Shown piece after piece: positions 675 to 39,600 of a stretch of DNA of 64,000 nt (its first letter is position 1; every line of letters begins with the position of its first letter). The DNA comes from Owenia fusiformis. Lineage: Eukaryota > Annelida > Polychaeta > Sabellida > Oweniidae. The translations under genes were made by a program, and so were the position numbers. Location: NCBI GenBank assembly GCA_903813345.2, contig CAIIXF020000006.1:28465936-28529935 (forward strand), read 5' to 3'. The notes beneath the pieces are model-generated. The model ran no database searches and was not told the origin of the DNA. It saw nothing but the letters and a program-made list of their open reading frames with translations.

Positions 675-3600
675 GTATGTCCATCGTTCTCATTTTCTAC
701 ATCTGTGTCATACAACCAAAATAATATTTATATTTAGTATTTTCATCTTTAATATTTGAAAAATCATCTTCAGTTAAGGGCAGGGTCAAAATATCAATGT
801 TCATATGTTACATACAATGCAAGTACAATGTAACATGTGCATATGAAACTCAAGATATTAAGTCAAAATATTAATATTTTCAGACCGCCACACTTGGTTC
901 CCAGGAAGGTGCTTTTGAGAATGTTCGTATTAACTACACAGGCGACCAAGGCCAGCAGATTCGTCAACTCATCACGTCACATGTGCTACGACGTGTGGCT
1001 ATGTGCTGCCTAATGTCACCCCAGGGCAAACGTCAACATCTGGCTGTGAGTCACGAAAAAGGAAAAATAACAATTCTACAACTCTCTGCTTTGTTGAAAC
1101 AGGCAGATTCCAGCAAGAGAAAACTGACTTTAACAGTGAGTGAAGTTTCCATCTAAGGCCTAGAGTATGAAAATAATATACATGTAAATGATCAATTTTA
1201 AACCTTCAGATATGTCAAATGTCTAGACCGTAATTGTAAAGAGAAAGAATCCCTAGTATGTAGAGATAAAATATTCTGAACATTTATTGTATACAATTTT
1301 GTCTGAACATTTATTGTATACAATTTTGTTTGATCCATTTTAGTCCTATTAACTTAACATGCGTGTTTTTGTTTACAGAGGCTAGCATCAGCCCCCATAC
1401 CATTCACTGTACTCAGTATCACAGGCAACCCTTGCAATGAGGACTTCCTTGCAGTATGTGGACTCAAGGTATGTTACCATAAATACTCTACATTGAACTA
1501 TATTCTGGAGAAAATGATTGTAGTTAGAAAGCGAGCTGAGTAAAGTCATTGAATGCTAGCAGAAGGACAATGGTTCTGCTTTAGTGTATTAAGTCCAAGA
1601 ATATTCAATTTCTGAATGGGTACATACATGTGATATTTTAGAAGAAATAATGATAATTTCTCACTTTACATATTTTTTCACAGATGTGTCACTAATTCCA
1701 ATCATATATGGATGTTGAGGTTATCATGAAGTCCATGTGCTCAATATTTGTGAATTTCATTTCAGGAATGCCATGTGCTCACATTCAACAGCTCTGGAAG
1801 TGTATCTGATCACTTGGTGCTTCATCCATCTCTGGAGACAGGCAATTTCATCATCAAAGCGGTGTGGTTGCCAGGCTCTCAGACAGAACTGGCTATAGTT
1901 ACAGCAGACTTTGTCAAGGTACTATTCTGAATGTTTTGATATTGACATATTTGAATCACATATGTTTCATTTGAAATTATGTAGTTTTTGAAAATTTACA
2001 AAAAAAATAAATATGTATCAACTGTTCACTTTTATTATTCTTTTTTTTTCTTTTATTCTTTATTCCTACCCACACTTGTGAGTATAAAATAGTACATATA
2101 CATACAATGATAATACAGTTTAGTTTAATTCACTACCACCAATAATCTTCATCAATTTACTTAATTGCACAGAATATTTAATATTTGACAACAAACTTTT
2201 AAATTTTAACATATTTGGTTGTCTATTGCATTTACTTTTTTATTTTAGAAATTGAGTTTTTAATTTATTTATCGAAGATTAATTCAATTTTATGTAAACA
2301 AATATTTTAACAGTGAATACATGTCTATGTGTGCACACTGAGTTTTACAATTACAAATTATACAGGTACTTAGATTAGTCACATGTTAAGATTGGCTGTC
2401 ATCTATTTTAAATTATTTTCCAGATCTATAATCTTGCGGTCGATGCGATCAGTCCACAATTTTACTTCCTGCTACCAAGCGGCAAAATCCGCGACACAAC
2501 GTTCATCTTCACTGAAGATGGTCACCACATGTTGCTGATGTCATCAAGTGGCTATGTCTACAGCCAAACGATGGAAGAATCCAGCAGCGCAACTCACGGG
2601 CCATTTTACATTACGAACATTCTTGAAATTAAGCATGCTGATTTGAATGAGTCAAATGGTCAGGTTGCTGGGGGTGGTGTGTCCCTGTATTACTCGCATA
2701 CACTGCAGTTACTATTCTTTAGTTACAGCCAGGGAAAGACATTCATTGCTCCAATAAACAAACAACTGGATAAGCTTGATATGATGTTCCAAGTCACGTT
2801 GAAAGGGTATGTAGTAATCAAAATGTTTAATTCATGAAGGGAATCCTGCCAGAGTCATTTATTTCTATACCATATCTGCGAGTTTTTATGTAAAATCTAG
2901 TAAACCGATTCCTTCATCATCAGTGTTTGTTCTCAATCTTAAATTATAACAATTTTTCAAACTCAATACAAATAATTATAGAATTTCTTGATGAAAAATA
3001 ATAATTTTTATGATTCACAGAAAATAACCCTTGCACTTATTATCGTTATTATATTTTAGAAGAGATGGCAAGGGAGCTCCACCACTTGTCCAGTGGACAG
3101 AAGTGCCGAACCACCCAGGCCTGGTGTGCTCTATGACACAGTCCAACAGTAACCCTGTGGTGTTTATGCTAAAACCTGATGGCATCTCAGTACAGGAAAT
3201 CAAAGTCATGCCTGCTAAAGCAAAGGTAATGAAGGCTTCGGGTAGTGCCACATCATGAGTGGAATTTTCCATAGGAGTAGTGGAATTTTCCCCTTGGTGG
3301 TTAACTTTAACTTAGTAGTTAACAGTACATGAAATCTAAGTTATGCCTGCTAAAGCAAAAGTAAGGAAGGCTTCAAATAATATTCTCTCAAGGTCTCACA
3401 AACAATATAAAACAATCCCATTTTTCAAAGATATGTACACTGGTAAGAAAGTCACATCATGAGTGGAATTTTCCATATGAGTAGTGGAATATTCCCTTTG
3501 GTAGTTAACTTTTCCTCTTGTAATTTTCTGTTTTCGCAATATTCAATCAAGTTTATTTATGCAACCTTCAAACAATATAGGTTATCATTTATAACATCTG

Positions 3601-6600
3601 TACACCACTAGTAAAACTTCCTGAATTATTCCATCTGGCTTTAAAAACTAAATATAATGTAACAATCAAAGGGGAGGACATAAAGGCCACATAAATTAAT
3701 GCTAAATCGGTTATAATACAAATTAAAATGTTTAACTGAACGTACAAATCAAGGTCACATTTTGTACCTATTTATCAAGAAAAGAAATACTAATATCATA
3801 TCTTTTTATACACTTTATTTATTTCTTCAGAGAATCAGTTTATTTTATCCAGACTTTCGACTTGTATCCACAAGTCTTTTTCAAGTGTTTAAGTAATTAT
3901 ATAAACGGGAGAGGTGAACTTACATAGATCTATATTTGATATCATTAAATGTATTCCACATTCTAGATCCAAGACATGGTTGCTGTACGTCACCCAACAT
4001 CAAACAATGAACAACACAGAACTACATTGATCTTGCTATGTGAGGATGGCAGTTTAAGGATCTACATGGCCAACCCTGACCACACCAACCACTGGATGTC
4101 ACCCCTTTTACAGCCACATAATGCTATTGCTATACTCAAACCTACCAAGAAGAAGAAAAGCGCTAAAGCGGGTATGAGGAATATATGATTGCTACCTCTT
4201 ATAATTGCTATGTTTTTTTCTGAGTTATTATCAACAAAAAGTGCTGTATTGTTTTGTTTTTTTAATATGTATTCAGAACAATATTGTTGAACAGTAAAAT
4301 GAAATAATGAAATCATGAAAAAATCAAGAACTGAGACAAGTTTGGGATATTCCCAGTTTAAATATACATTAAGTATTTCACACACAGCCACTTAAATGGT
4401 CCAGAGAGAAGACTACGCATCATAACTCACAAGAACGTCCTGTCCAAACTCCCATATTGAACAACCCATTTTTATCACACAACAAATCTGTTTCAGGTCG
4501 GCCAGCAGGCTCAGTTAACTTCCCAGTGGATTTCTTTGAGTTTGCCCAGCATACAAACACTGTAGAGTTTGGAGGGAATGATGTCCTACAAATCTACAAT
4601 GCGCAACAGATCAAACACAGACTCAACACAACTGGCATGTACATTGCAAGTTCAAAGGTAAGAATTCAAAATTACATTGTAATTACACTGTAGAGTTTGG
4701 AGGGAATGATGTCCTACAAATCTACAATGCGCAACAGATCAAACACAGACTCAACACAACTGGCATGTACATTGCAAGTTCAAAGGTAAGAATTCAACAT
4801 TACATTGTAATTACACTGTAGAGTTTGGAGGGAATGATGTCCTACAAATCTACAATGCGCAACAGATCAAACACAGACTCAACACAACTGGCATGTACAT
4901 TGCAAGTTCAAAGGTAAGAATTCAACATTACATTGTAATTACACTGTAGAGTTTGGAGGGAATGATGTCCTACAAATCTACAATGCACAACAGATCAAAC
5001 ACAGACTCAACACAACTGGCATGTACATTGCAAGTTCAAAGGTAAGAATTCAACATTACATTGTAATTACACTGTAGAGTTTGGAGGGAATGATGTCCTA
5101 CAAATCTACAATGCGCAACAGATCAAACACAGACTCAACACAACTGGCATGTACATTGCAAGTTCAAAGGTAAGAATTCAAAATTACATTGTAATTACAC
5201 TGTAGAGTTTGGAGGGAATGATGTCCTACAAATCTACAATGCGCAACAGATCAAACACAGACTCAACACAACTGGCATGTACATTGCAAGTTCAAAGGTA
5301 AGAATTCAACATTACATTGTAATTACACTGTAGAGTTTGGAGGGAATGATGTCCTACAAATCTACAATGCGCAACAGATCAAACACAGACTCAACACAAC
5401 TGGCATGTACATTGCAAGTTCAAAGGTAAGAATTCAACATTACATTGTAATTACACTGTAGAGTTTGGAGGGAATGATGTCCTACAAATCTACAATGCAC
5501 AACAGATCAAACACAGACTCAACACAACTGGCATGTACATTGCAAGTTCAAAGGTAAGAATTCAACATTACATTGTAATTACACTGTAGAGTTTGGAGGG
5601 AATGATGTCCTACAAATCTACAATGCGCAACAGATCAAACACAGACTCAACACAACTGGCATGTACATTGCAAGTTCAAAGGTAAGAATTCAACATTACA
5701 TTGTAATTACACTGTAGAGTTTGGAGGGAATGATGTCCTACAAATCTACAATGCGCAACAGATCAAACACAGACTCAACACAACTGGCATGTACATTGCA
5801 AGTTCAAAGGTAAGAATTCAACATTACATTGTAATTACACTGTAGAGTTTGGAGGGAATGATGTCCTACAAATCTACAATGCGCAACAGATCAAACACAG
5901 ACTCAACACAACTGGCATGTACATTGCAAGTTCAAAGGTAAGAATTCAACATTACATTGTAATTACACTGTAGAGTTTGGAGGGAATGATGTCCTACAAA
6001 TCTACAATGCGCAACAGATCAAACACAGACTCAACACAACTGGCATGTACATTGCAAGTTCAAAGGTAAGTGTTCAACATTACATTGTAATTAAACATTG
6101 TCTTTTATTTTGTAACATTAAGTGGTGCTTTAAATGCTCAAATATTTTGTTGCAGTATGTACATTGCAAGTTCAAAGGTAGGAATTTATTTTCTTGTTGT
6201 AGTCTCCAACTTTTTTGTGGATGGTGTTTGGTAGTCGATGTTTGGTGTTTGGCATTTGGCAGTGGGCAATCAGCTTTCCCCAGTCGGCATTAGGCATCTG
6301 TAACAAATAGCAGATGGTGACATTTTTCATGTTAATGCCTTGGATTTTGTTATATTAAATGGTGCTTTTAATGCTCAAATATTTTGTTGCAGTATACACA
6401 TATTTGACATGTAAATGTTGATGATATACTATGTGTACATTTTAATATATGTAATTTTTACTTACAATTTCCAGCCATCTGGTTTCACTATTGAAGTGAC
6501 CAATACAACAGTCAGTAATGTAATGGTTGGAATTAGAGTGCTGGTTGGCAGTCAGAGTGTGGAGAGAGCACCTACATATGTGGAGATGTTTGGCAGAACA

Positions 6601-9600
6601 GTGCAGGTATGTATTGAGTACAGTATGATCGTGGCATTGATCATTTTATTTTCATAATTTAATCTATATTGCGAACCAGAGATATTTGACAGAACAGTAC
6701 ATGAATGCAAAGCATTGGAAAAATTAGGCCAAGTGTAGGAAATGTATGTCCCTGCCCTTGTCATATTAACAATAAAGCCTTTCCTTCCAGGTGAATGTGA
6801 CTAAGGCTCGCTGGTATGACATCCCCTTCACAAGGGAGGAATCTCTATGTAATGTATCATATTTGCAATGTTCTATTCCAGGTGAATGTGACTAAGGCTT
6901 GTTGGTATGACATCCCCTTCACAAGGGAGGAATCTCTATGTAATGTATCACATTTGCAATGTTCTATTCCAGGTGAATGTGACTAAGGCTTGTTGGTATG
7001 ACATCCCCTTCACAAGGGAGGAATCTCTATGTAATGTATCATATTTGCAATGTTCTATTCCAGGTGAATGTGACTAAGGCTCGCTGGTATGACATTCCCT
7101 TCACAAGGGAGGAATCTTTATATAATGTATCATATTTGTAATGTTCTTTTCCAGGTGAATGTGACTAAGGCCCGCTGGTATGACATCCCCTTCACAAGGG
7201 AGGAATCTCTATATAATGTATCATATTTGTAATGTTCTATTCCAGGTGAATGTGACTAAGGCCCGCTGGTATGACATCCCCTTCACAAGGGAGGAATCTC
7301 TATATAATGTATCATATTTGCAATGTTCTATTCCAGGTGAATGTGTCTAAGGCTCGTTGGTATGACATTCCCTTCACAAGGGAGGAATCTCTATATAATG
7401 TATCATATTTGCAATGTTCCATTCCAGGTGAATGTAACTAAGGCTCGCTGGTATGACATTCCCTTCACAAGGGAGGAATCTCTATATAATGTATCATATT
7501 TGCAATGTTCTATTCCAGGTGAATGTGTCTAAGGCTCGTTGGTATGACATTCCCTTCACAAGGGAGGAATCTCTATATAATGTATCATATTTGCAATGTT
7601 CTATTCCAGGTGAATGTGACTAAGGCTCGCTGGTATGACATCCCCTTCGCAAGGGAGGAATCTCTACAAGCTGACAAGAAGTTCAACCTGATAAGTATGT
7701 GCCATTTCTTAATGAAAATTCTAGCCAATTAAGTAAATCTAAATTTAAAAAACAGTCTTTATTTCTAATGCTTTTTACGTAAAATAAAGTTTTGTCATTT
7801 CTCAAAACATCTGGAACCATCCAGGGTGTGTAGGTTTTGATTTTTTCACTAAGCAAAGTATTAATACATCTGCACCTTGTTTGAGGTTAACATATTTGAA
7901 AAGGCCTAAATATTATCTCTCTAGTGGTACAAAAGAAAGAAAGAAAGAAAGAAACAAACAAACAAACAAACAAACAAACAAACAAACAAACAAACAAACA
8001 AACAGTAAATGTATGAGATGCATTCAATTATCTTTAAGGGTATCTGCATGGCAGTATTGTTGGAGACATTTGAATTTCAAGTATTCAAGATATTTTAAAA
8101 AACATACATACCCTGCATGCATTCTGTAATAGAGCACTCTGCATATTATATGGATGCATCCACCTTACTTCCAGTTGGCCCCAGTGTTGACCCAGCTGGA
8201 ATCACCATGTTAGACTCACTGAAGATATATACTAAAACTAAGGAGGCATTTGGGTGGCCAGAGGACACAGAGGATTTCCCAGAGCCTGCTGGACCGAAGC
8301 CCGTAGTGGTGCCATCTAGTAGTAATAGTAGCACAGGCAGAAATGGAAGTAACGACACGGAGAATTCAAGTTTTGTAGCACCACTGCCACTGACATCTAT
8401 TGACAGGTATGAACAACAAATATGGTAAACCTAATTGGGATTAACATTTTTTTAAAAACTTGAGTGTGAATGTGTAGAATTATGGTCCTCTGTGGATTTG
8501 TTCTCTCATTTGTATTGTTTACTTGGCCGATTGAGTATAAAAGTATACGGAAAATAATTGTAATTAGATCCCTGGAAAAGTGAATATAGAGAGGGACACC
8601 AATACAACAAGAAAATACATAAGACAAAATGCATCAGTTTTTCACAGATTTTATTCTGAATGGCTGCCCACCACCCAAATGAAAATATTTTGCTAAATTG
8701 ACTTCAAGCGGAGATATTTACATAATATAAAGGGTATCCATAATGTCTCTACACTTTACATAGACTGTGTATTGTAATTGTTAAGAGACTTTATGGACAC
8801 CCTGACTTTACGGACACCCTGTATTATTATGTCACTACCACAAGTGATGACATATTATTACAGTTTCCAACTTCTTGTGGATGGTGTTCGGCGGTTGGTG
8901 TTCAGGGTTTACCAGGGGTCCTTTTCTGTAATGCCTTGGTCACATTTGCTCCAATTTTCACTACGGCGCCTGGTCGATTGAGTATTTTGTTCAGAAATGT
9001 ATTCAGTTTTGAACAAAATTCTCAATCGGCTGGGCGGCGGCCGATGAATCGCAGCAAATGTGACCCAGGCATAACACATGGCAGTTAGTGACATTTTGCA
9101 TGTTAATGGTTTATCTTCACTTGAATGTATTTCAGACTTCTCAGTAACTCATTGGAAGTGTTAGATGGATGTTTTGCTTGTTGTGCTAACATAGAAGAAA
9201 GAGACCCCGTCAGATCTATTGCATTGGATATCAGCACAAACCTGCTGACTCTGCCTACTCCACCACCAGTCCAACAACACACTAAATCATTGCTGGCGTC
9301 CCTTCATAGCAACAATATAGCCTACCATAACCACAAGGTATGTAATGTTGCAACATAATAACCTACAATAACCACACGGTGCGTTACATTGCAACAATAT
9401 AGTCTACCATAACTTCTAGGTATGTATACCATAGCAACAATTTAACCTACCATAACAACAAGTTATTGTAGGTATGTTACATAGCAACAATATGGCCTAC
9501 CATAACAACAGAGAAGTGTAACATAACAAGAATGTTACATCTCATTACACTCACAATATTTTCAAATGTTGTTTGGCTTGACACTCAACACCAATATATT

Positions 9601-12600
9601 ACACTTAACACTGTACAATTGTGGCATCTCACATTTCTTGTTAAAACTCTTCATTGAAATAGGAATATTTACATGCATATATAATCTGTGTGTATATAGT
9701 AGGGCTGGTAGGGAACTGTATCTGTATCTACCTGTTCATTTTTAATAGACTTTGGAACTTCTATCTCACTTGTTTTATATACATTAGAATTTGAAATAAA
9801 TGAATCAGAGTTGACTCTATATATTGAATGCCTTTTATAGAGGCCAGTTCTTAAGTCTTTTCCATTCTTTGCCAGTCTGTTTATCTATATAAATGATACC
9901 TTGGCCTAGATATGATTAAGACAACAAAGTAACAATATGTTTTGCATGTAAAATTAAGCAAATGGAGAATTCTAAAAGTGAAAGTGTCATGCTTGAAGTT
10001 TTTCCCCTAGAAACACAACTACAGTGCCATCTATAGCAAGGTGTCAGTTGTAGCACACTGACATTGTCTGGTATGTTAGCTTTATTCTCTGTATTTGATA
10101 ATGTGAATGTTTCCATGCTGATCACCAACTAACGCATGTCCTTCATGATTAACTACACATGCTTTTGGTTGAACTAAGCCATCAGATTTTGTCATCAGGT
10201 ATTGAAGGAATGTTCCATTAGGTGACAACAAGTGCACTCTTTTGTTCAAAGAGTCAATCACTATGACATTGTCTGCATTGTCTGTACATATTCCAGCAGG
10301 GTGATATAACTGGTTTTGCCCACTTCCCTGTGTGCCATATCTAAACACTACATCACCATCTCTGGTGATAGCTGTAACCCTATGGGCCAGATAATCAGAC
10401 ACTATCACCACATCCTTGCTATTGGTAGCTATATACAATGGATACTCAAACAAACCTAGAGTTGACTTGGCAAGTATATCACCAGATGTTATATCCACAT
10501 GATATATTGACTTATCCCCAAAGTCACTGACAATTAATTCATTTTTAGAGTTCACACTTAATCCAAGAATATGATTCAATTTTGGTACTTCCATTTGTCT
10601 AACATGAGAACCATCTGCTTTAATGAATCTAATAAAGGGTATTTTGCTTGTTGTAAACCCTATAAGCTTACTCTTTGTTGTGATGACATTGGATACGTAA
10701 TAATTAATTTCAAAGTATTTTATTTGCTCCAATTTGCTGTTATACATATAGACTGATCCTTCCTCAACTGTGATAAGTTTGTCATTGTCAAACATCTGAA
10801 GGCTTTGTATATATCCATTTAGCTTCTTTGACACTAATACCTCAGGTTGGATAACCTTTTTCACATGGTGATCTAGAGATGACAGACAGATACCAGCAAT
10901 GAGAACAGCTACAGCTAATACTATGAGAAGAAAGGTGAAGATGTCTTTAGTCATAGCAGTGTCCTTTATTGTGACTTCCTCAAGTGTGATCGCATCAGTC
11001 TTTACAGTATCTTTCACTGTTACTTTCCCAAGTTTGATTGTTATTTTTCCAAGGCTTTCAGAATAGTTTTTGATTTTTCCAGGCTGTGTTTTAATGTGAA
11101 GAGTTTTGCCGTTGAAGTCAGGTTTAGGATTTTGTTTCCATTGCTTTCTTTTTCTGTGGATTTCATTTGTGATATTAGCCAACTCTGCATTGTTAGTTTT
11201 GTCTTTCATTGTATGTAGTTGGTCAATGGTGTTTTCAATGTTGGCTTTCTTGTCTTCAATATTCTTAATGTGATCTTCTGCTGGATTCGTACAATCCTCA
11301 ATCTGTTTAATTACATCATCAATTCTACTGGTGTAACTTTCTCTAATAGTAAGTATAGCAGCATTCATCTCATTTGTTAATACATCAGTGGCATTATTGA
11401 GAGTTCTTTGCATGTTATCTCTGTACAGTTTAGCTTGTTTAATTGCAGTGTCAAAAACATCTACCCTGTTTTCTCCATCTTTGAGAAGCTCATCAATAAG
11501 TATTTTGTTGTTTTCTGCTGCCTTGTGTATGTCCACATATTTATGGCCTTTGTGATTGATTGCAATGCATTCAGAGCAGATAGCACTATTGTCATCCTCG
11601 CAGAACCAATTCAGAACATTGTTTTTGTGTTTTGGACAGTTAACTTTGGGTTCTTTCATGTATTCATATAACATTTTCTCATCTTCGATTTTATCATCTG
11701 TCAGGTTCAATATGGCATGGCCACTTACAAAATTATCATGCAATTGTCTGCATTTAGCACATAACACTTTACTACAGTTAATGCACATAACTCGTGCTAT
11801 TTTGTCAATATTCTGGATAGCACATACAGCGCATGTAGGTTTGCCATCTTGATGAAATGTCTCAAACAGCTTACTGGAAGTATCATCTTGTATCAAGCTT
11901 ATCTTGAAATTCTTTACCCCTCCTTCAGGTATCATATGTTCCTCTCTACAGCCAGGGCATTTTAACTGGAAGCCTCTTTGTCCATCCTCCACAAGTTTGT
12001 CTAGGCATTCCACACAATATATATGCATACATGGAAGTATCCGTGGACTTCTCAAAGTCTGGTTGCATAATTTACAGACCAGTATGTTCAAATCTTGCGA
12101 TGTTGCGGCACTCATTGTTTCATTAGTTTTCAAGTTGAATGTGATTTTAACATGTGATTTGGGCGTTTTACATCTAAAAGAACAATGTAAAGATAACTAT
12201 ATCAACAAGTTCATTGTAAATGGTACGAGTTTGTATCTCAGTATATTTTGTTAAATATTAACAAAAAAAACAATAGGCTGACTGATAATTCTGTTACTAT
12301 TAAAATGTACTGCAATTGTTCAAGGACCACACATGGCAATCTTTGAAAAACATTAAACATTGAAGAACTTACAATAAACTAAATGGCACAATAATTAGAT
12401 AACACAAAGGGCAATAATTAGATAACACAATTGGTAATAATTAGATATTACATAAGGCAATAATTAGATAATACAATTGGTAATAATTAGATAACACAAA
12501 GGCCAATAATTAGATATTACATAGGGCAATAATTAGATAACACAATTGGTAATAATTAGATAACACAAAGGCCAATAATTAGATATTACATAGGGCAATA

Positions 12601-15600
12601 ATTAGATAACACAATTGGTAATAATTAGATAACACAAAGGGCAATAATTAGATATTACATAGGGCAATAATTAGATAACACAAAGGGCAATAATTAGATA
12701 ACACAAAGTGCAATAATTAGATAACACAAAGTGCAATAATTATTAGATAACACAAAGGGTAATTATTAGATAACACAAAGTGCAATAATTAGATAACACA
12801 AAGTGCAATAATTGAAAACTAAAAAAATCTAGAATAGTATGAACCATCAATTTATTAGATAAATAGATAAATATAACAACACAAACTATTTCTTATATGG
12901 ACCAACTTAAATAGTAATTAAAAATATATATATGTATATATATGTATATGTATTCAAGGAATTTTGACTTGTGATAATTATTAAAATCATTGTTTTCTGC
13001 CATAAATGCAGCATTGACTATATATGTATTGTACATATTGTATGTATTGTATGATGTGTATTTCAGGACCAGGCCCAATTAGCACATGTTGTGCAGTGCC
13101 TCAACCAGTATGGCAGTAACCTTGACCCCGAGGCATTCCAACGTTTGGTTGTTACTGCCAGGTCAGTTGCCGTGGCGAGGCCTGCTAACCTAGTGAGATT
13201 TGCAGAGAAAGACAGCAGTACACTGGTCAGTGAGTCAGGTAGGTTTCTGTGTGTTACATCATCATTTCTGACACATATTACTGTGAATATTATGTAACCA
13301 TGTTTATTCCATAGTTAGCATGATATTCATTAGATAACATGTGAAAATAAAAACGGTATTTTTGTAATCAGTGGTAAAATATGATATTTTTGACAAATTT
13401 TCGCTTAACCATAGCATACAGTTTTTAGCCATGACATACGACGTCGTATGCGATGGTTAATGGATTTTTGCTACTTCAGACTCAAAACGAGGCTAAGTGT
13501 CAACATCGCCAGATCGTTTGGAAAATTCGAATTAAATGACTTAATTTCCGACAATTCTGATGATGACTTTAACTATGGAATAAAAAGAACATCCTATGAT
13601 TTACTCGTGATATGATTTTAATCCACTCATGGATATTGATATCTGCACTCTCTCGCTACGCTCGCTCGTGCAGATATCATATCCATTCGTGGATATATAT
13701 AACTTTTATTGACATCTTGTATCTAAAAATAAATAAATATCTAAACTACAAATACTAACTAAAGCAAAAGTACAAAAATATATACGAGATATACAAAAAC
13801 CCAAAATAAAGGTAGTATACATCATGATGAAAGGACAAGGTTACATTTAAAGTGTGGTGCACATACCCTGCATTCTGACTACAAATTCTTAAATGAATGA
13901 TAAATGAATTTTCCAATGTGTCTTTGTAATGTTAAGTTTTTACTTGAAATGAGATTGACAAATAAATTTTCACTATTGAGGTCAAAGTTACTTAAAATTT
14001 CACGAGCCTTAGTGTACAATAATTGTCTATGCTCATCATTCTTTGTACAAGTTAAAATGAAATGACATTCATCCTCTATATGTTTACAGGTATTGCATAA
14101 CCTTTCCTCTCTAGGTTTTGGTTTTGGCTTTGCATGTCTTCCAGTCTCAATCGCCAATCGATGAGAACTCATTCGAAATCTACTTATCGCCAACCTATAC
14201 TTTTTATTATCTAATTTCAAATATAATTCAATTCTAAAATCTTTTTTGAACAATTTATACGTTCTCAGTATAGGATAAATGTTCAAATCATTTTTCCATT
14301 TTTCTACAAATAATACCTTCAACTTCTTTTCTACCATGCTCACTAGATTGTCAGTATTCAGATTTTGGTCATTCCAATAATCCAATAAATCACATTTTCT
14401 GAGTATATTATAGACCTTGCTAGACCAACTTTTGAATCCTAACTCTTGAATATCTCTATCATATAAATAGGCTTGGTTTAATACATTGGATTCTAGAAAT
14501 GTTAGAAGTCTAAGCCAATATTTTATAATATAACACTCAAATTTGATTGACAATGGGTACCTGCCTAGATCACCATACACAGCAGGGCTTGCAGTTTGTG
14601 ATTTGACACCTAATGTTGACTTTAAAAAAGACAAATGTATGGATTCAATTGCTTTCATTTGTTTTTTATCATACCATATTTCACATGCATAAGATAAAAT
14701 TGGACTGACCAAAGCATTAAACAGATGAAGAGCTACATCTGGTGGCACATCATTAAACTTTTTATATTGCTGTTTTATCTTAAAAAGAGCCTTTCTTGAT
14801 TGTTCTTTAAGATATTTAGTGTTCATATCAAAACTTTTGTAATTGGTGAGAATGAGACCTAAATATTTGTATTCATTAACACATTCCATACTTTTATCAT
14901 TAAATTCAAATTTGAAAGATCTTTTGGAATTGAAGATTAATGCTTTAGTTTTCATTATATTGACAATTAACCTATTAGTCTTACAGAAAGCAAAAAGTGC
15001 GTCAAGTAATGTCTGCAATCCTTCACTGGATTCTGAAATCAATATGAGGTCATCTGCCCATAGAAGGTGGTTAAGCCTCTTATCATTTAAAATTACTCCA
15101 CAGTGCGTTGGTAAATATAGTGCAAGATCATCTATAAAGTGATTAAATAAGAAGGTACTGAGAACACTCCCTTGTAAAACTCAAACATCTGTATTAAAAT
15201 AGTCAGATACTCCATTTTTCAACTTAAGACAAGACTGAGATTTGAAGAACATACTGTCAATGATTTTGTACATTTTGCTATTGGGGTTTACACCGCTCTT
15301 ACAGAGTTTGTATAGCAGGATTGACCTATCAATATAGTCAAACGCTTTCTTGAAGTCAACCATACATGTAAAAAGAGGTTTTTTAAGCAGTTTAGATTTG
15401 TTAACTAATGTCTGTAATATAAATATGTTATCGATTGTTCGGCTATTTTCTTTATATGCACCTTGCAGAGGATCTTGAGAATTTTGTACCTGTGCATTAA
15501 AAACAAGTCCATTTTGAATTACAGAATCAAATATATTACCAATACAAGCTAATACATTTATACCCCTGTAGTTATCTGCTTTAAAATGACTCCCTTGTTT

Positions 15601-18600
15601 AAAGAGAGCACTTAGCATACCAATGCTCCAGTTACGTAGGTATTCACCGCTGTCGAAAATTACATTAAAAAGTGCTGTAAAATCTGGAATAAGTACTTCA
15701 CAACTCTTAATTATGTTTGATGGGATACCATCAATGCCAGCTGATTTATGAGAATTTACTTTTTTTAAAGCATTGTACACCTCAATTTGACTAATTCTGC
15801 CATCTATAATATTATAACAAAGATTTAAATTAATGTCATCAGAATTATTTTGAATGCTATCTTGAATAAATTCATTCATCTTTTGAAGTGTATCATTATC
15901 AAAATAATCCATGTTTGGAGGCTTTGCCAGATTTTGAAAATAGGTTAATAAATCCTCAGGGGGTACTGATATATCTCTAATTATATTTCCTGGCATTGCA
16001 TTAATTAATTGCATTAATAAGTTTCCAAAAATCGGTTGAAGATTTAGACCTATTTACTACCAAACTGTCTAACATTCCTGCTTAAAACCTTCTTTTTTCC
16101 CGCTGTTTAGTTTGATTGTATTCTTTGATAAGTTGGTTAATATGAGTTTCATCAAGTTTAGTTTTGATAGCATCATGAACTTTTCTTTTCAACATTTTAC
16201 ATTCATCAAGCATTTATAGGAAATTTACTGCTTTTGTTTGATTTTAATTCTTTAAGTTTAAATGTTCCCTCACAAGCATGATGTATTACATTTAAAAGTT
16301 TACTTAATAGTTCATCTGTCCCAATATTAGAACAGCCCAATTCAGTATAGAAAGTGGTCAACAATTCATTACTAGTTTGATCACTAAGTTTTTGGATGAA
16401 TTCATTTGTCTGTGCCGCTTCCCATTTGTATGACTTAAAAGAATTAATATTAAATGTATTCTTTCTTTGATCTGATACACTAGCTTTAAAACGTGTTTTT
16501 CCTGATTTTGTTAGTGAAAGTGAAAAATGCAAAGGGGCATGATCAGATTCTACCCTTCTATCATGTACTTTAAAATCTGATATCAATGGAATTATAATAG
16601 GTTGAATTACTACATAGTCAATAACAGATTTGCCAAGGTCAGAGTTTGATTCACAATTATGAGTGAAGTTCCGATAACAAGTGTACTTTCCAACTTCTTT
16701 GTCACTATAGAGACGCCCATTGAGTATTTTCATGTTTGCTGATTTACATAATGATAAAAATTCTCTCCCGTGTGTTTGCGAAATTGCCCTTACATTTTTA
16801 TCCATAGAGTTGCGTGTTCTGAAAAGATCATCAATTTTGTTTCCATTTTCTTGTCTAAGCATTGACTCATTAATGCTAAAAATATCTACTGGTAAATCAC
16901 CATTACTACCAAGTATATCTATGTTACTATCAGTAAGATTAGCTGTTCGGGCATTCATATCACCACAAATTATTGTCTTCCCCAAGGTTTGATAATGAGC
17001 TATTGATATTTCTAGTATGTCAATATTATTTGGCCCTGTTGCAGATTCATACACAGAGCCTTTAAATGGCAAATAGATAAAACATATAAATAAATCTTCT
17101 TCAATATTAAAATTAGTGGCACTTAATTTTATCCAGACGAAAAAGTCATGAGATTGTGGAAGTATATCAATACCACCTGTACTATATTCATCACTGATCA
17201 ACACTGCAAGCCCACCTGAGTTATTGAAATGCACTCATAAATCATAGGATATCCTCTATTTATAGTATGGTCAGAGCAATATCAGGTATATAATATCAAG
17301 TGATAAGCCACTTATTTGGGACAGGCATGATATCAAGGATGATATCATGATTAGAGGGCTGATGTCAGGGATGATATTGATATCATTTTTTACATTTTTT
17401 CCAAAAATGATTCATATAAGTCTTTTTTCAAAAAATTTTAAGTTTTTCGAAATTCTTATTTTTCCAACATTTTTCATTTTTTCAAAACACTTTCAATTTT
17501 GGACTTTAAAAATAATTTTCATTTTTCAAATTTTTTTTAAGGTATTATGTTTTTCTTTTTCCTATATTTTCAATGCACATTAGGATGGGATAATATGTAA
17601 CTTTAATATTCCTAAGAGTCAAACATTTTTTCTCATTCAACAGAGGACTTAAAGTAGATATTGCTCTTGACCATGGTATAAGGTTGTTGCTTAATACCAC
17701 ATGGATTCTGGAAATATTTTATAGGCTAAACAACAGCCAGCAAAATGTAGAAATGAAATCTACATGATAAGACACGAATCAGTAAAGTGTAAATGTTAAT
17801 AAAATTAAATATAATATCAATCAATTTAACATGGAAAATTCAAAAAATGACTGTATTTCTTCAGCCCTGGAGATGACTGATATTGAGATCGAGGGTGATG
17901 ATCAGATGAATGAATCCAGTGCTTCTACACCTAAGACTATTGTACCAGAGGCTGATACATTGAACAACTGTTTGACAACCACCAGAGAGGAGATGCAACA
18001 CTTCATGGCCCAGTTGCTTGATGCATTCTGGAGGCTACATGGCTCTAAGCCTGCCAACCCTGCTCTGGCTCCAGTCTGTATGCCTGGTGAGTCAACTAAC
18101 GTTTCCTTTAAATTAGAATTTTCTGAAACGTTTTGTTATTTTGTTGATCAAGTTGTTTATGGGAGATTTAACTGGAAAATGTAAGTTCAGTCTGATTATC
18201 TTTGGGTCGACTAATCATTTAAAAACCTCTAGAATTTTCTGGAACTTATAGAATTAATAAATTGTTAATTGTGAAAGAGTTTGTGTGAGTCTGTATGCCT
18301 GGTGAGTCAACTGATCAGTTAACAAAATTTTGGAACTTTTAGTGCATTGTATATAGTGTTATAAATGTCTCCTGTGAGAGAGTTTGTCAGAGTTTTGATT
18401 TAGTTCAATTAAATGATGGCATAAAGTTTTTATTTCTTTATTGATCTGTTTTGATGACAAAAAATAAAGTTTATTTAATTCAAGTTCAAATCATTACATT
18501 GCGATCTCGTAGTTGAGGGAAAATCCTACAGGTAACATAAACCAGTTTGATGAGACCATACTAGTATCACAGATTGCAAAGAATGGCAGGAATACATTGT

Positions 18601-24600: not shown

Positions 24601-27600
24601 TTCCCACAGGCTCTGTCTGCATAGGGTGGTCACATATACAATAGAATCTGAGAAAGTTAACATGATGCCAATTTTTTTTTTTTTTGATAATGAAATTGGG
24701 TTATTATTTCTCAAGAGTTATAAATAGTTTAATACTGAACTAAAATTGGATTTCAACCTATCCTTGTGTTTTTCATAAATAGATAAATATTTCGTGATAC
24801 ATTTAAGATGTTGACCTTTGTGTTCTTCCTTAATTTTTCAGGATGAGGGGAGTGTGTTACCAGGACAACTACTAAAGCCCCACCCAGCAATATCCCCACC
24901 TGATATGTCCCCATTCTTCCTACGGCAGTATGTAAAGGGGCATGCTGGGGATGTGTTTGATGCCTACCCTCAATTGCTAACAGAGATGGTCCTGAGACTT
25001 CCCTACCAGGTAGAACTACATTGATATGTGTCTTTAAAATTTTGAATCAGGTAATTTGTCTGAGGTCATTTTCAGAATTTTTACCTGCGCAAAATCTCAT
25101 TTTGGATGAAATCTTATAGAATAATTAACTTTCCTTTTAAAATATGCTGTATCTGAAGACCAAAGTTCAACATGAGCAATGTTAATTGTTAATTTTCTCT
25201 TTGAAATAAGTTGTACCCGAAATCTGAGTTCAATGCTGGCAATTATATGTGTGTGTTTTAGATGAAGAAGATAGCTGACAGTGTGGCTAACCTACACACA
25301 CCTGTCTTTGACCAGGACTGGTTCTACCTCCTGGCTGAGTATATGATGATTCAACAGGCCCCCTTTGTAAGGAGACAAGTCAGGAAGGTAATACAAGTTA
25401 TCAGCATTTTGATTAATAAAAATCAAGATCAAGGTTATGCCTTTGATTGAGACTGAATTTATGGAATATTTTGTCGTGTTGATTGCTTTGTTTTTTCTGC
25501 AGTTCTGGAACACTCCATTGTGATTGGAAAACCAAAGTCTGTCTAAATTATATAGAGTGTTGTTTTAGAGTTCAGGTTTGCACTATTTACACTTTGTTTA
25601 CTGATTTTCTCAATAAATGATTATTTCTTCAATTCTCCTGTTTTTTCTTTCAGCTGCTTCTGTTCATATGTGGCTCAAAAGTAAAGTATCGCCAGTTACG
25701 TGATCTCCACTCTTTAGAGTCACACATGAAAGTGATTCGTGGAATGTGTGAGAAGGCGGGGCTAGACTTGAGTGATGAGACTGGAGGTACCAGCATCATT
25801 ATGGTCTACGACAACCTGCTTACAATGGTTTGTAAATTTTCCAGATTTCTGAAATAAAGCTTGTATTATGCAAAATTTAAGGTCCCTTTATTTGACATTT
25901 CCTATTGAAGTATCATACATATACTGTATATAGAGCAAAATATTGTCATGTGAAATCCAGTTTATCCCTACTGGATCAAGATTTCATGAAGAAAAAGTTC
26001 AAGTTGGTTTTGTGTTTCTGTTATAGATGGAGCACCTAAAGGCATGTGTAGAGGTTGCTGGTTGTCGCACGGCAAATTGGCAGAAATTCTGTCAACGCGA
26101 AGGAAGTAAGTAAAACATGTCAGATCTTGTTATCGCCTCTTAATGTTGCTTTATTTGTTGGTACAGCAGACAGTGAACTTAAGTCTTATTCTATGTCATA
26201 ATCAATGTTCAAATGTGTAAAGATATAAACCAGTTTCTTGTATCTGATATGAATCAATGAACCAAGAGAAAGTGTTAAAACATTGATAGGTGTTTGGATT
26301 AGAAGTATGTTCGCACATACCATGGTTTTACTTTATTTATGAAAATGAATGTCCTTTATCTCTGGTTCACCCTGCACTTTCAGATGTGATCCAGTTCCTG
26401 GTACAGACCAGTATAGCACTTGATGAGGGATTGTCCTCCTGTATACTGCAACTCCTGCAGTATGCTATATGCGGCAACAAGCCCAGCCAGACTACGGGAG
26501 GATCATCAACACCCAGTAAAGGAAAGAAACAAGACAAGGATAAGGATAAAAATGAAGGTACTGTATTAATCACACTTAAGTGAAATCATAAGTTGACAGG
26601 AATTTAGCATTAAGATTAAAGGAATACATGAAGGGAAGGACAAAACTAACAAATCAAGTAAATCTGGAAACAAAATATTACCATTCACTTTTTGTCTGAA
26701 ACTTTCAACGAAAAATACTTTTTGAATATAATACCATGTCTTATACCATGTTAGGAATCACATCAGCGCCAAGACATGCCCAATGAAGAAGTTGATATTT
26801 GGACATGGGTTGGTCTGTGGTGTAAAATGTTACCATATTTCATTTTATATTTGTGGTTTGTAATCATTTTGTACTTTGGCCTTATAGCTGAGGAAGACAG
26901 CCAGAAACACGATGAGGCTTTGTGTATGACATTGGTACAACAGGTCCATAAGAACATCAGCCATGAACTACTAGTGCGCTTCATACGCGCCTTCCTCCTG
27001 GAGTCCAACTTCTCTTCTGTGAGATGGCAGGCACATGCTCTTGTTCTCAATATTTATAGGTAAGATATGCTCTTACTCAATATTTATAGGTAAGAATATG
27101 CTCTTACTCAATATTTATAGGTAAGAATATGCTCTTACTCAATATTTATAGGTAAGATATGCTCTTACTCAATATTTATAGGTAAGAATATGCTCTTACT
27201 CAATATTTATAGGTAAGAATATGCTCTTACTCAATATTTATAGGTAAGAATATGCTCTTACTCAATATTTATAGGTAAGAATATGCTCTTACTCAATATT
27301 TATAGGTAAGAATATGCTCTTACTCAATATTTATAGGTAAGAATATGCTCTTGTTCTCAATATTTATAGGTAAGAATATGCCTTCGTACTCGATGTTTAT
27401 AGATATGTACTGAACATGCACTTAAAATTAATAGTTAAGACTAATTCCCATACTCAGCATTTTACAGGTAAGTGAAGTTCATGCCCTCTATAAATTGTAT
27501 TCAGAATTGACTGACAAGTACATACCCTTGTGCTTAGTAGTTATGGGCAACAACATTCCCATTTATTCAAAAGCACTTACCTCAAAACTCAACTCTATAT

Positions 27601-33600: not shown

Positions 33601-36600
33601 ATGTTCCACTTGAGGGGTGTTCCACTTACAGAGGTTAATTAACAATAAGTCAATAGGTTGCGTGGCTGTGAAGAATGTTCCATTTATGGAGGTGTTCCAC
33701 TTCCAGAGGTGTTCCATTTAACAGGTTTTACTGTTGTTTAGAAATAATTATTAGGTACTTGTACTGGTCAAGTCATTGTTGATTGGGCACTCAATTGTGT
33801 TTTTGACATTGCAATGTCTGACAGGCCTTCATTGATTTATTGACCGTTCTTTAATGATGCTGTTGATTGTGTAATAAGGATGTTTCAGGGGGGCATCTGC
33901 AAGATGATGTTGATAGCTGTCAAAGTTCACATTGTGTTACAAGTTGTGCTCTGATTGTGTTTCTTGTGCTTTGGTTGTGATATTGATTGTGCAATGATTG
34001 TGTTTCAGGGTGCATCCGTTAGACATGAAATGATGTTGCTAGCTGCTACAGTACAGAGAGAAGATAGCTGTTGGGAACTCCGAGTCAGATGCGGTAAGTT
34101 ACCAATTCAGTCAACCAAACACGTAATCAGAGCAATAAAGAGATTTGTCACAGATACTGTATAGCCCATATATAAGAGAACCCCATAATGTCACTCAAGA
34201 GTCCAGAGTTAACATTCAGATCATAAAAAAGGTTTCCTTTTGCAAATTTGAAGAAATTTCTAGATTGGTTATTTTTCAAAAAAAAATGTGAACAGCATGT
34301 TGTATTTTAACATTAATCCCTCAATTCAGGCTTCAATCTAGAAATCATGCCTTTCATTTATAAATGTTTATCCTCGACATTTTCTTTCTCTACATTCTAA
34401 CATTTCCCTGTATTTGTAGTCGTGAAGCTGTTCCTGACATCTATAGAGATGAAGAAGCCTGTATTCATGGAGTCCATCACACTGCCATGTCTCTGCATTC
34501 TACAACACCTTATCAAACCTGATGCTACTATTAAGAAGGGAAAGGTACATCTCCACACTTACACTGTCATTTCTTCACATTGTCTGTCTGATATTTTTGC
34601 GTGCTTGTTTAAAAAGTGTATGAGAGTCTAGAATTGCTCCAATTTGGTGATGAAGAAACTTTCTGAAGTTTCACTGCAATGCATTCCCCCTAAGTAACTG
34701 ATGTATATCTACTGGGTGTGAGGCCGGATTCAGCCGAGTGAGCACCTCTTGCTTTATACACCCCATCCACAGATCCACAGCGTTATCCAAAATGGAACAC
34801 CTGTGACATACACAGCCAATATAATTCGACGCCATTTCGGCATCAAAAAAATTTGGCACTGTTCCGGCACCAAAACCTCTCGACACCAAAATTTGCTACC
34901 GGACTAGACAGTCCATTTGGTGCCGAAACGGCACCGAAATTTGGCACCGAAAGGGCGTTGAAAATCAGATTGCATTTTGGGGGTGGAACACCTTCTCCAA
35001 GGTTCGTGAATGTCCTTGGTTGTCACATGAACGCAATCATAGCAGACATATTCAGTTGGTCAAAATTAGACCGAGATAAAGGTCACCACTATAGTATATC
35101 TATAGTATGTATGTATGTCTGTTTCTAGGATAAAGCCATGGAGACATTGAGTAGCATAAAGTCAGTTGATGCTGGACTACAGGTTGACGTCAGGAAGTGG
35201 TTGTCAGGTGACCTGAGCCACACCTACCAACAGTGGAGACAGAAACAACCAACCAAAGGTCAGTATCTCATATCGTCTAACAAAATGCACAAAATACATT
35301 TAGAATTAAGTTTTTGTTGCACATTTAGTTCCATTTTTGCTTGCACCCATTGATACATTATTCAGTTGCTTTTAGTCGCTTACACCCATTGTAGATAAAT
35401 TAGCCTAGAAATAAGTTCTGCTTGTAAAGTTTAGTTGCTTGCACCTTTCTTTATAGTATATCCTAGTATACTATACAGTTTGGTATATCTACATACGACA
35501 TGTGATTGCATTTCTTCACTCCTTAAACACCAAACAATAATTAAGCATATTAATATGATGAATTTAGTTCTAGCCATCATTGTTTTAGGGCATAAGTATT
35601 ACACCACCTTGGTAGAAGCCTCTGGTAAGCCTGCTTGAACTCTATTGCAGTCCTTCTTTATATACCAGTGTTCTTGTCCTCTATACAATCATTACAATTA
35701 CCCAACACCTTGTTGCTCTAAACAATAACCCCAACATGTTCCTCTATACAATCACCCTGTCCTTACATGTTCCCTTATACATCAGCATACCCCTATTTTA
35801 ATCGTCAAATCTCATCTAACAAGTTTGCGTATTGTTTCTATGATCATTTCATAAAAATCAAACACCAAATACCCTTGTTTGGTGTTATGTCATATTTGGA
35901 TTGGCTGTTCTATCTAATGCAACATAATAACAATATCTCAACACACTATCACTAAATAATCATATAGATTGATGCATTATGGGAAACATCCTCCTTTCCA
36001 GTAAAACCTAAGTTCATTTGACAATAAATGGTATCAAATCACTTCATCGTATCATCAAATCACTTGCAAATGTCCATTTAAGGAAAACATCTTTGTTAAT
36101 AATGTTCTAGTTAGACTGTATAAATATGAAAGCACAATACAAGGTCAAAAAAGCTATAACAGCAAAGAAAAAGGCTTCAATGAGTACAATGCATAATTGA
36201 GTATTAGTTTTAAGCTTGCATTGTTCATTCATGCTCCAAGTACAATATGGTATAATTTAAAACATGCTCAAATATTTTAGACAAGTCAAAGGTGGATAAG
36301 AAGGAAGGAAAGGGTGACAAAAAGGAAGGAAAACCTGATAAAAAGGAGAGTAAGGAGAAGAGGGAAAGCAAGGAGAAGGCAAGGGCGAAGTTTCTCATGG
36401 AGAAATATGGAATTCGATGGAGGAAGAAAGTCAAGCAAGGTAAGCTATGGATATTTCATATGATACTGCACTTGTTGGATTATGGTTTTTAGGACAGTTG
36501 TTTTCTATTCAGTGATTCCAATTCTTATTAAGAAACAATCTTTATAGAGAATGTATTGCAAAAGTCATGGAATGAAAATATAACTCTTAAGATAAACAGT

Positions 36601-39600
36601 TAAAGCGTACAAAGGCAAGTTTTACACTTGTGTATTGGATACATTGTTAATTATTAAAGCCTTGTGAAGGAATTAGAATACTAAACAATGGTGTTTCTAT
36701 TCTGTCACTTACTTCCGTCTTAATTCTGTGACATTGCCTAATGTTGACTATAGAAAGCTTAGTACCCCTAATTAAGAAGGAATAAGAAAAGCTAAAAATG
36801 ATTATTCCAGGTGAAGTCCTTCCTCTGAAGCTCCTGGACAGCAGTTGGCTAGAAAATGCACTATTTTCTGCAAGTTCCCGTGCTGCGCGTCAGACTGTCA
36901 GCGCCATCTGTGAGACAGTGTGTAATACGCAGACAGAACGCAGGAGAGCCATCATTGACAAGTTCACTGGGTAGAAAAAAAGATTTTTCAATATCAGAAA
37001 TAATTTATTTGGAACTTTAAAGTAATCTGTTGTTTTATTTTCAAATTGATATGTGAAGGATCTGCCATATACATGTATATACTTTTTACCTCATGGGCTT
37101 ATTGTATTAGTTAAGAGCTAGTAGTTATAGTAAGGTTGGGCAGGGACATGTAAAGAAGTAGAGGGTCAATTGGGATATAGGAATCTCAGCATATTTTTAT
37201 GTCACCTCCACAAGTGGTGACATGCTGTTATAGTCTCCAAGTTTATTGTTGTGGTGGTTGGTGTTCATCGTTCAGTGGTTAGTGTTAGGCATTTGACATC
37301 TGTAAAATGATAGGTGGTCACATTTTGCAGGTAAATGCCTTGTTATATATATTCATTTAATTATACATTGTACATTCTACATTTTAGATACCTAGATAAG
37401 ATAGGGACTGCTGGAGAGAATGCCAGTGACTTCCTCGCCCTCTATAAGAAACTCATCACTCCAAACCATTGGAAGGTCTATTTGGCTATTAAAGGGGTGT
37501 TGCCTCACATTGGAGAACTTATAACCAAGGTTAGTCTATTTGGCTATTAAAGGGGTGTTGCTTCACATTGGAGAACTTATAACCAAGGTTAGTCTATCTG
37601 GCTATTAAAGGGGTGTTGCCTCACATTGGGGAACTTATAACCAAGGTTAGTCTATCTGGCTATTAAAGGGGTGTTGCCTCACATTGGGGAACTTATAACC
37701 AAGGTTAGTCTATCTGGCTATTAAGGGGTGTTGCCTCACATTGGGAACTTATAACCAAGGTTAGTCTATCTGGCTATTAAAGGGGTGTTGCCGCACATTG
37801 GGGAACTTATAACCAAGGTTAGTCTATCTGGCTATTAAGGGGTGTTGCCTCACATTGGGGAACTTATAACCAAGGTTAGTCTATCTGGCTATTAAGGGGT
37901 GTTGCCTCACATTGGGGAACTTATAACCAAGGTACATTCAAATTTGAATTTTCGTTTTTATTCAACATTTCAGACATACACATAGTGAATGTATAATAGT
38001 GATTTGCTTGAGACCCTCTCTGACCTGTTAGCCTATATCACAGATTATGGATTAATCAATCCTTGTTTCACATTTGCAGGAGATAGAATACATTGAGCAT
38101 CTTGAAGAGACTACACTAAGCTCTGACCTGACACAGGGATATGCCCTCAAGTCCCTCACTGACCTGTTAGCCTATATCACAGACTATGAACTGATCAAGC
38201 AGCACTACAAGAGCAAACTTGTAGGGTTTGTACTGAATGGATACCTATCTCTACGCAAGCTTGTGGTGCAGAGGACTAAGCTGATAGATGAGACACAGGA
38301 TAACCTACTTGAACTCCTTGAGGAAATGACTACAGGTCTTTATAATACATAATTCAATACCCTAGAGTATCCTTGTATATAAAGCCAACGGTTTCCGGCT
38401 TAGTGAGCCATTGGAATTGTTGTGTAGGCATTCGTCTGTTTGTCATACATTCCTTTATAAACTACCTTCGAATAGTCTTTTCTGTAAATCATGATTTCTT
38501 TTTTTCACACATTGAGCCCAACTAATGGTGCTAGAAAAGACTATATCTTGAAAAACACATTGAATGAAAACAACACTTTTAATGTCAACCTTGTACTGTG
38601 TTTCAGGTACAGAATCTGAGACAAAGGAGTTCATGGCTGTATGTGTAAAGACAGTGAGCAAATACGGCATGGAGGACCTCATATCTCCAGTATTCATCTT
38701 TGAGAGACTCTGTAGTCTTATATTCCCCGTAAGCATATTGGTGAACACTTGTACACCTGTTAAGAGAACATTGTTTTTTTAGTTTCAGTGAACACCTTTT
38801 TTGAATATTTCAATTCGTGATCTGTATGAATGGCTCTCTTGGTCTTTACTTCTGTGTTTATTCCACTCTCGCTCATGTACATAGTTAACCAAAGAATGTA
38901 ACCCAAACAAATGTAAATAACCCAATCATTGACCATAGATTTAAAGGTCATGTTTGGCACAATTAAACCTTGTTCAATTTTCTTACATTTTCTATCAAGT
39001 TTCATTTGTTTGTTCCAAAGGGTTACTATTTTATGGCCATTTTACTGAACATGCTGAATCCATGTTGAATGACTGAGTTGTAAACATTTGTTTTGGTTGA
39101 ATTTTGTTGCTCACCCTGTATTATACACTTGAATAATGTTAATACGAATATGCTCCAATTCGGTATCCCACATAAGGTATGAGTACCGTAATCCAACACC
39201 AAATTCGAAAATTCAGAACAATACTTTGCACATATGGCGTTCGTGATCAACTATAAAATGCTTACCCCCCATAGTGTTATATATCAAAATGTACCTGTTC
39301 ATATAGGGGTTCAATTGATCAACATTAAATTATAGGGAGTCAGGTTACTTTTTGAGATATCAGCGTCCATTTATTGTAACTCGCGTTTGCTACCATTTCC
39401 TCAATTCTGAGATGACGGGCAAACGCGTAGTAAACATGCTCACGCTGGAACTATTTTGATCTACATCGCTATTTTCGTAATTCAAATGAAAGTTGAACTC
39501 CTCCTCTTTATTTTGATACCAAATAGTGGCATACTAGGTACCCTAGAAGCCAACTATGGCGTTATTTAGAACAAAACCACAAGTTTTTAAATGGACTATA

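Follow-up and report, generated by a model that had tools for sequence, protein, structure and literature searches.

Minisatellite-type repeats across many exon-intron boundaries of one UBR4 gene segment, probably of the kind known in amphioxus as mirages

Tandem repeats that span the 5' or 3' exon-intron boundaries of genes are described in amphioxus globin genes, where they are called 'mirages' after a 2002 case in Adh3 (PMC3087553). According to that account, the units measure 10-160 base pairs (bp) and many carry AG/GT, the Adh3 data and reverse transcription polymerase chain reaction of globin transcripts suggest no interference with splicing, array length is unstable, also somatically, and a model for the gain of introns is offered. 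PGBD5 and troponin C are reported as further amphioxus mirage genes (PMC3902484). Human genes within segmental duplications are described as carrying tandem repeats at exon-intron boundaries, with a mean unit of 30 bp, and as having formed novel introns (PMC2812944), and for potato RdRp an intron is reported to have been gained via duplication across an intron-exon boundary (PMC4974935). The available text of an earthworm metallothionein study covers intronic minisatellites and exon duplications; boundary-spanning arrays were not found in it. Here we describe a UBR4 gene segment within a stretch of 64,000 nucleotides (contig CAIIXF020000006.1, positions 28,465,936 to 28,529,935; the window), in which at least 10 of 107 splice junctions are duplicated, seven in arrays and three as single copies, and which we read as a case of mirages. 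An earlier set of notes made by a model from the letters alone (the sequence-only reading) had pointed to these repeats and had stated that no named process was known for them, which is contradicted by the amphioxus mirages and by the boundary repeats of human genes.

The gene was modelled by dynamic programming that used codon scores together with splice-site matrices. The resulting segment, part of a longer gene, has 54 phase-consistent exons on the plus strand (1-43132) and encodes a stop-free product of 2901 amino acids. Three parts of this product align in order to the human UBR4 protein between residue 1743 and about 4490-4590 (phmmer against human UBR4 structures), and the last ~70 residues (exons 53-54) match it weakly. 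The automatic model had 66 exons; the 12 extra ones, which we removed by hand, lay on array copies (11 within arrays and one on a stray copy, 6156-6177), and another automatic model placed more, a warning for gene predictors. The exon numbers of the sequence-only reading coincide with those of the rebuilt model and are kept here. G+C content is 32.8% in introns, 47.3% in coding sequence and 48.4% at third codon positions.

Arrays were taken from Tandem Repeats Finder (TRF), and single copies and weak traces from self-comparison; all positions in the gene are on the plus strand unless stated. In seven TRF arrays the splice junction lies inside the unit, and both types of boundary are hit, with five arrays at donors (exons 9, 13, 20, 30 and 46) and two at acceptors (exons 11 and 16). 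The exon 9 donor array (4555-6094) consists of 12 copies of a 128-bp unit, 99% identical, each made of 101 bp of exon and 27 bp of intron, and a further stray copy lies at 6157-6186. At the exon 11 acceptor (6785-7666) a 91-bp unit is repeated 9.7 times and CCAG|GTGA, a strong acceptor and donor, is present in 10 of 10 copies. The exon 16 acceptor array (18606-19715) holds 6.8 copies with units of 157/167 bp and CTAG|GTTT in all seven. A 31-bp unit is repeated 11.5 times at the exon 30 donor (27046-27402), with ATAG|GTAAG in 11 copies and lost in the last part-copy, and a 58-bp unit, 54 bp of it exonic, is repeated eight times at the exon 46 donor (37476-37933). The exon 13 donor array (9305-9466; 41 bp, 3.9 copies) is decayed (71%), its donor motif partly lost in the copies. 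The array at the exon 20 donor (22002-22052; 23 bp, 2.2 copies, 82%) was detected by TRF and is absent from the list of the sequence-only reading; its self-comparison score of 27 lies under both cut-offs applied below (30 and 44).

Self-comparison added single copies at three junctions. The donor edge of exon 7 (3188-3239) has one intron copy at 3323-3374, 90% identical, and that of exon 15 (18073-18097) has a copy at 18288-18312, identical in 25 of 25 bp. The acceptor edge of exon 22 (22824-22856) has a decayed copy of 33 bp at 22656-22688, 91% identical and without AG. The same comparison gave a weak partial copy of the exon 10 donor edge at 6679 that lacks GT (6583-6707) and a weak, decayed copy of the exon 16 donor edge at 19942 (19804-19995). 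Of the eleven exons for which edge copies had been claimed beforehand, nine were recovered (7, 9, 11, 13, 15, 16, 22, 30 and 46) and two were not. The repeat just upstream of exon 41 (33932-34006) is purely intronic and stops 2 bases before the exon, and at exon 47 it is the interior (38150-38198) that is copied into the preceding intron (38011-38059; 88%), so that neither is a copy of a junction.

The junction duplications range from 71 to 100% in identity and are of different ages. Array units vary in length (from 23 bp up to 167 bp) as well as in sequence, so that the arrays look like independent events, in agreement with what had been proposed from the lack of a common unit size. In ten measured duplications the intron part of the unit varies unevenly from 4 to 48 bp, indicating breakpoints away from the junction itself. 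Local copies in the gene are direct, with 75 direct matches and 1 inverted (at least 36 bits, within 2.5 kb, overlaps unmerged), which rules out a dispersed transposon. Whole-exon tandem duplication or mutually exclusive exons are ruled out, as the units hold one exon edge only, and so is a retrocopy or RNA-mediated origin, as the units include intron and the breakpoints lie off the junctions. An assembly artefact is very improbable: the 99% identity of the exon 9 array would fit one, and one mirage in a draft amphioxus assembly is described as seemingly misassembled (PMC3087553), but in the other arrays there are substitutions inside the repeats, units of two lengths (157/167 bp) and identities of 71-97%. 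We also noticed that the functional copy of exon 11 (7610-7694) encodes Ala (GCA) and that all nine intron copies (6785-7603) encode Thr (ACA), as in human UBR4; the array thus probably retains the older codon.

The sequence-only reading attributed the position of the extra copies, always on the intron side, to selection for one intact exon. Of the copies produced by a duplication across a donor, the first alone remains joined to the preceding part of its exon; at an acceptor, the last alone remains joined to the part that follows. The polarity is therefore inherent in tandem duplication across a junction, and its geometry makes selection unnecessary as an explanation.

We scored the splice sites within copies found by motif, a procedure that misses copies lacking the motif, such as the terminal part-copy of the exon 30 array. 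Site scores are nearly unchanged in 13 donor copies at exon 9 (the stray one included), 11 at exon 30 and 8 at exon 46, and in 10 acceptor copies at exon 11 and 7 at exon 16. Copies in three arrays (exons 11, 16 and 30) score both as donor and as acceptor, those of exon 30 being usable as donors and moderate as acceptors. AG|GT is found at three of three duplicated acceptors (exons 11, 16 and 22) versus 7 of 50 others (Fisher P 0.005), and at eight of nine duplicated donors versus 27 of 45 others (P 0.10), a comparison conceived after the arrays had been seen. Where AG|GT stands at the duplicated site, each unit is a GT...AG segment. Splicing to a neighbouring copy would be harmful to the reading frame: use of the next donor copy instead of the first adds a stop codon at exons 9, 13, 30 and 46, as does use of the previous acceptor copy instead of the last at exon 16 (five of seven arrays), and in the remaining two, exon 20 with its 23-base and exon 11 with its 91-base unit, the frame is shifted without a stop. 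Hence the splicing machinery would have to pick the right copy or splice again at AG|GT. Whether conserved splice sites point to selection inside arrays was considered for exons 9 and 11, whose tabulated copies vary too little for a test, and the idea was set aside.

Taken together, the arrays are quite probably mirages, that is, minisatellite-type arrays across splice junctions. The window shows local direct repeats, differing unit lengths, mostly exonic content and other minisatellites nearby, and the reading is supported by the 54-exon frame, which is intact beside the arrays and matches human UBR4. A short local tandem duplication would by chance span a splice junction and would then grow through slippage or unequal exchange. 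Wholly exonic duplications would mostly be removed by selection, and a junction-spanning one would leave one full exon beside its true neighbour sequence, with every extra copy intronic. Were splicing to start or end at the wrong copy, units with AG|GT, being GT...AG segments, could still be excised without leaving a trace, and this may let arrays grow harmlessly.

To place the frequency of these events, we compared junctions with other positions of the gene. In the placement test, units were placed randomly on the collapsed gene, using arrays of period at least 14 and score at least 60. There are 20 such arrays, of which 7 lie at junctions, 1 is purely exonic and 12 are intronic; free random placement predicts 2.28 at junctions (P 0.0026), and a circular shift of the whole unit set, which preserves clustering, gives a mean of 2.24 (P 0.003). 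Across 30 pairs of thresholds P ranges from 0.0001 to 0.028. Among large arrays (score at least 500), five of seven are at junctions and 1.4-1.5 are expected. Array density at score at least 60 is 0.46 per kb in the gene versus 0.24 in the rest of the window, and at score at least 200 it is 0.19 versus 0.14 per kb (8 and 3 arrays). In a self-similarity test, 50-base windows at 106 of the 107 junctions (one at the model end was left out) were scored at cut-offs of 30 and 44. Local score 30 is reached at 12 junctions, and all these matches except that of exon 41 cross the junction; reversed and reverse-complemented controls gave 0 of 106 at either cut-off. Score 44 is reached at 9 of 106 junctions versus 2.6% of 1200 intron positions and 4.3% of 1200 exon positions, the exon controls overlapping the same repeat units as the junctions, and old exon copies remaining recognisable for longer because one copy is conserved. 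The overlap with junctions beyond chance that the sequence-only reading had proposed is thus borne out in this one gene (7 of 20 arrays versus 2.28-2.61 expected), in a post hoc test of a gene selected for its odd look. The excess is genuine in this gene yet moderate.

These counts could be taken to mean that duplication in this genome is truly targeted to splice junctions or to AG|GT proto-splice sites, for instance through R-loops, nucleosome edges or the step from GC-richer exon to AT-rich intron. We consider this unlikely. It would account for the seven junction arrays, for the large arrays and the score-44 copies at junctions, and for AG|GT at every duplicated acceptor, but the units extend unevenly round the junction, the data come from a single gene chosen for its appearance, P varies with the thresholds, and a four- to five-fold exon-biased rate accounts for the count.

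Several observations weigh against the mirage reading as set out above. With purely exonic placements barred, 2.61 junction arrays are expected versus the 7 observed (P 0.007-0.008), and the reading therefore depends on luck or on a higher rate of duplication in exons. At the loose cut-off of 30, junctions are only slightly ahead of introns (11.3% of junctions versus 6.9% of intron and 5.5% of exon positions). Exon definition would favour the donor of the first copy and the acceptor of the last, a pattern of usage that we infer from the sequence. The AG|GT at the exon 22 acceptor scores poorly as a donor (1.0), and acceptors 40, 53, 48 and 45 outscore that of exon 16 in dual scores and have no array. 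The G+C content of the segment also seems low for Branchiostoma.

Two accounts of the frequency are compatible with mirages. The first, which we hold tentatively, is that duplication is commoner in exonic than in intronic sequence and that mainly intron-crossing events survive. Of the ten duplications measured, nine have units that are more than half exonic (mean exon share 0.69, Wilcoxon P 0.006), with spans entered by hand and with the share inflated in old pairs, in which the exon copy decays less. When a four- to five-fold exonic bias was simulated and exonic arrays were purged, 5.1-5.7 junction arrays were expected (P of at least 7, 0.21-0.33), and a three-fold bias gave P 0.11; a rate four to five times higher in exons, together with the purge of purely exonic arrays, would suffice to remove the excess. 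However, the units of the intronic arrays show, by eye, no preference for GC. The second account, somewhat more doubtful, is chance in a gene picked afterwards, coding sequence being easier to recognise in intron copies. The window was flagged for looking odd, long units often overlap junctions in an intron-dense gene, as the 1.4-1.5 expected among the seven large arrays illustrates, and the loose-cut-off excess over introns just given is small. Against chance stand the P of 0.003 in the clustering-preserving test and the recurrence of similar arrays in several lancelet genes, as described in PMC3087553 and PMC3902484. The sequence-only reading had suggested targeting through R-loops or replication, and this is not required: an exonic bias of duplication, with arrays confined to exons being lost, is sufficient, and so is luck in a hand-picked gene. 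Of its proposals, a genome-wide habit of the species would best fit the literature.

A bolder extension of the mirage reading is that tandem duplications in this genome would arise preferentially at AG|GT exon edges, and that the dual-site arrays of exons 11, 16 and 30 would be removed piecewise by recursive splicing. Splicing would then both make expansion safe and provide a standing source of new introns, in a host that possibly lies outside the lancelets. We think it improbable that this holds as a whole. How new introns arise is an open question of gene evolution, and boundary minisatellites are a candidate source of them; at least ten junction duplications of varied age in one gene let the preference for exon edges and the tolerance of AG|GT be asked genome-wide. 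The initial observation was sound: a kind of boundary repeat already known and named is unusually frequent, and dense, in one gene.

Other features of the window are as follows. Intron 13 contains an antisense TRIM-type open frame of 704 amino acids (10085-12196, minus strand) with RING, B-box and NHL repeat. Intron 14 holds a broken non-long terminal repeat retrotransposon (13882-17234, minus strand), with endonuclease and reverse transcriptase pieces across three open frames; the endonuclease match is under the Pfam cut-off, and the reverse transcriptase has no relative among viral and prokaryote contigs. The intron after exon 24 carries a fold-back element of ~860 bp (23773-24633) whose arms are 91-96% complementary. 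Downstream of the segment, positions 45691-57168 (minus strand) hold several cysteine-rich, secreted-looking open frames, of which 50135-51706 and 56023-57168 are alike by eye, and a Thr-rich open frame with an in-frame repeat of 17 residues (48770-49060); five open frames tested from this region gave no Pfam match at E 0.01. A 31-bp satellite with 82 copies occupies 60436-62993, and its consensus has no exact match in viral or prokaryote contigs. Rfam and transfer RNA scans gave no matches. CpG is strongly depleted throughout 1-43132 (observed/expected 0.30 in exons and 0.33 in introns), and depletion in exons and introns alike suggests heavy gene-body methylation.

The closest counterparts of the UBR4 arrays are the amphioxus mirages of Adh3, the globins BflGb6 and BflGb9, troponin C and PGBD5. 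Both are tandem minisatellite-like repeats over donor or acceptor boundaries, with variable unit length, with AG/GT kept in many units (here at exons 9, 30, 46, 11 and 16), and with an intronic array beside one complete exon. UBR4 differs from the amphioxus cases in that a single gene segment, known here from the sequence of one haplotype, has at least 10 of its 107 junctions duplicated. The repeats of human genes in segmental duplications are likewise of minisatellite type, lie at exon-intron boundaries and are thought to create or alter introns; as described in PMC2812944, they vary between recent paralogs and are kept in exons or turned into introns, whereas those of UBR4 are intronic copies of exon edges. 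Intron gain by AGGT tandem duplication (the Rogers model; potato RdRp, as reported in PMC4974935) shares with UBR4 a duplication that crosses the boundary and an AG|GT core that makes a GT...AG unit, but the UBR4 segment shows no sign of any new intron. Finally, the arrays resemble ordinary intronic minisatellites, which also occur as neighbours in the same window, in unit size, copy number and homogeneity, and differ from them in that the UBR4 unit includes the exon edge and its splice site.

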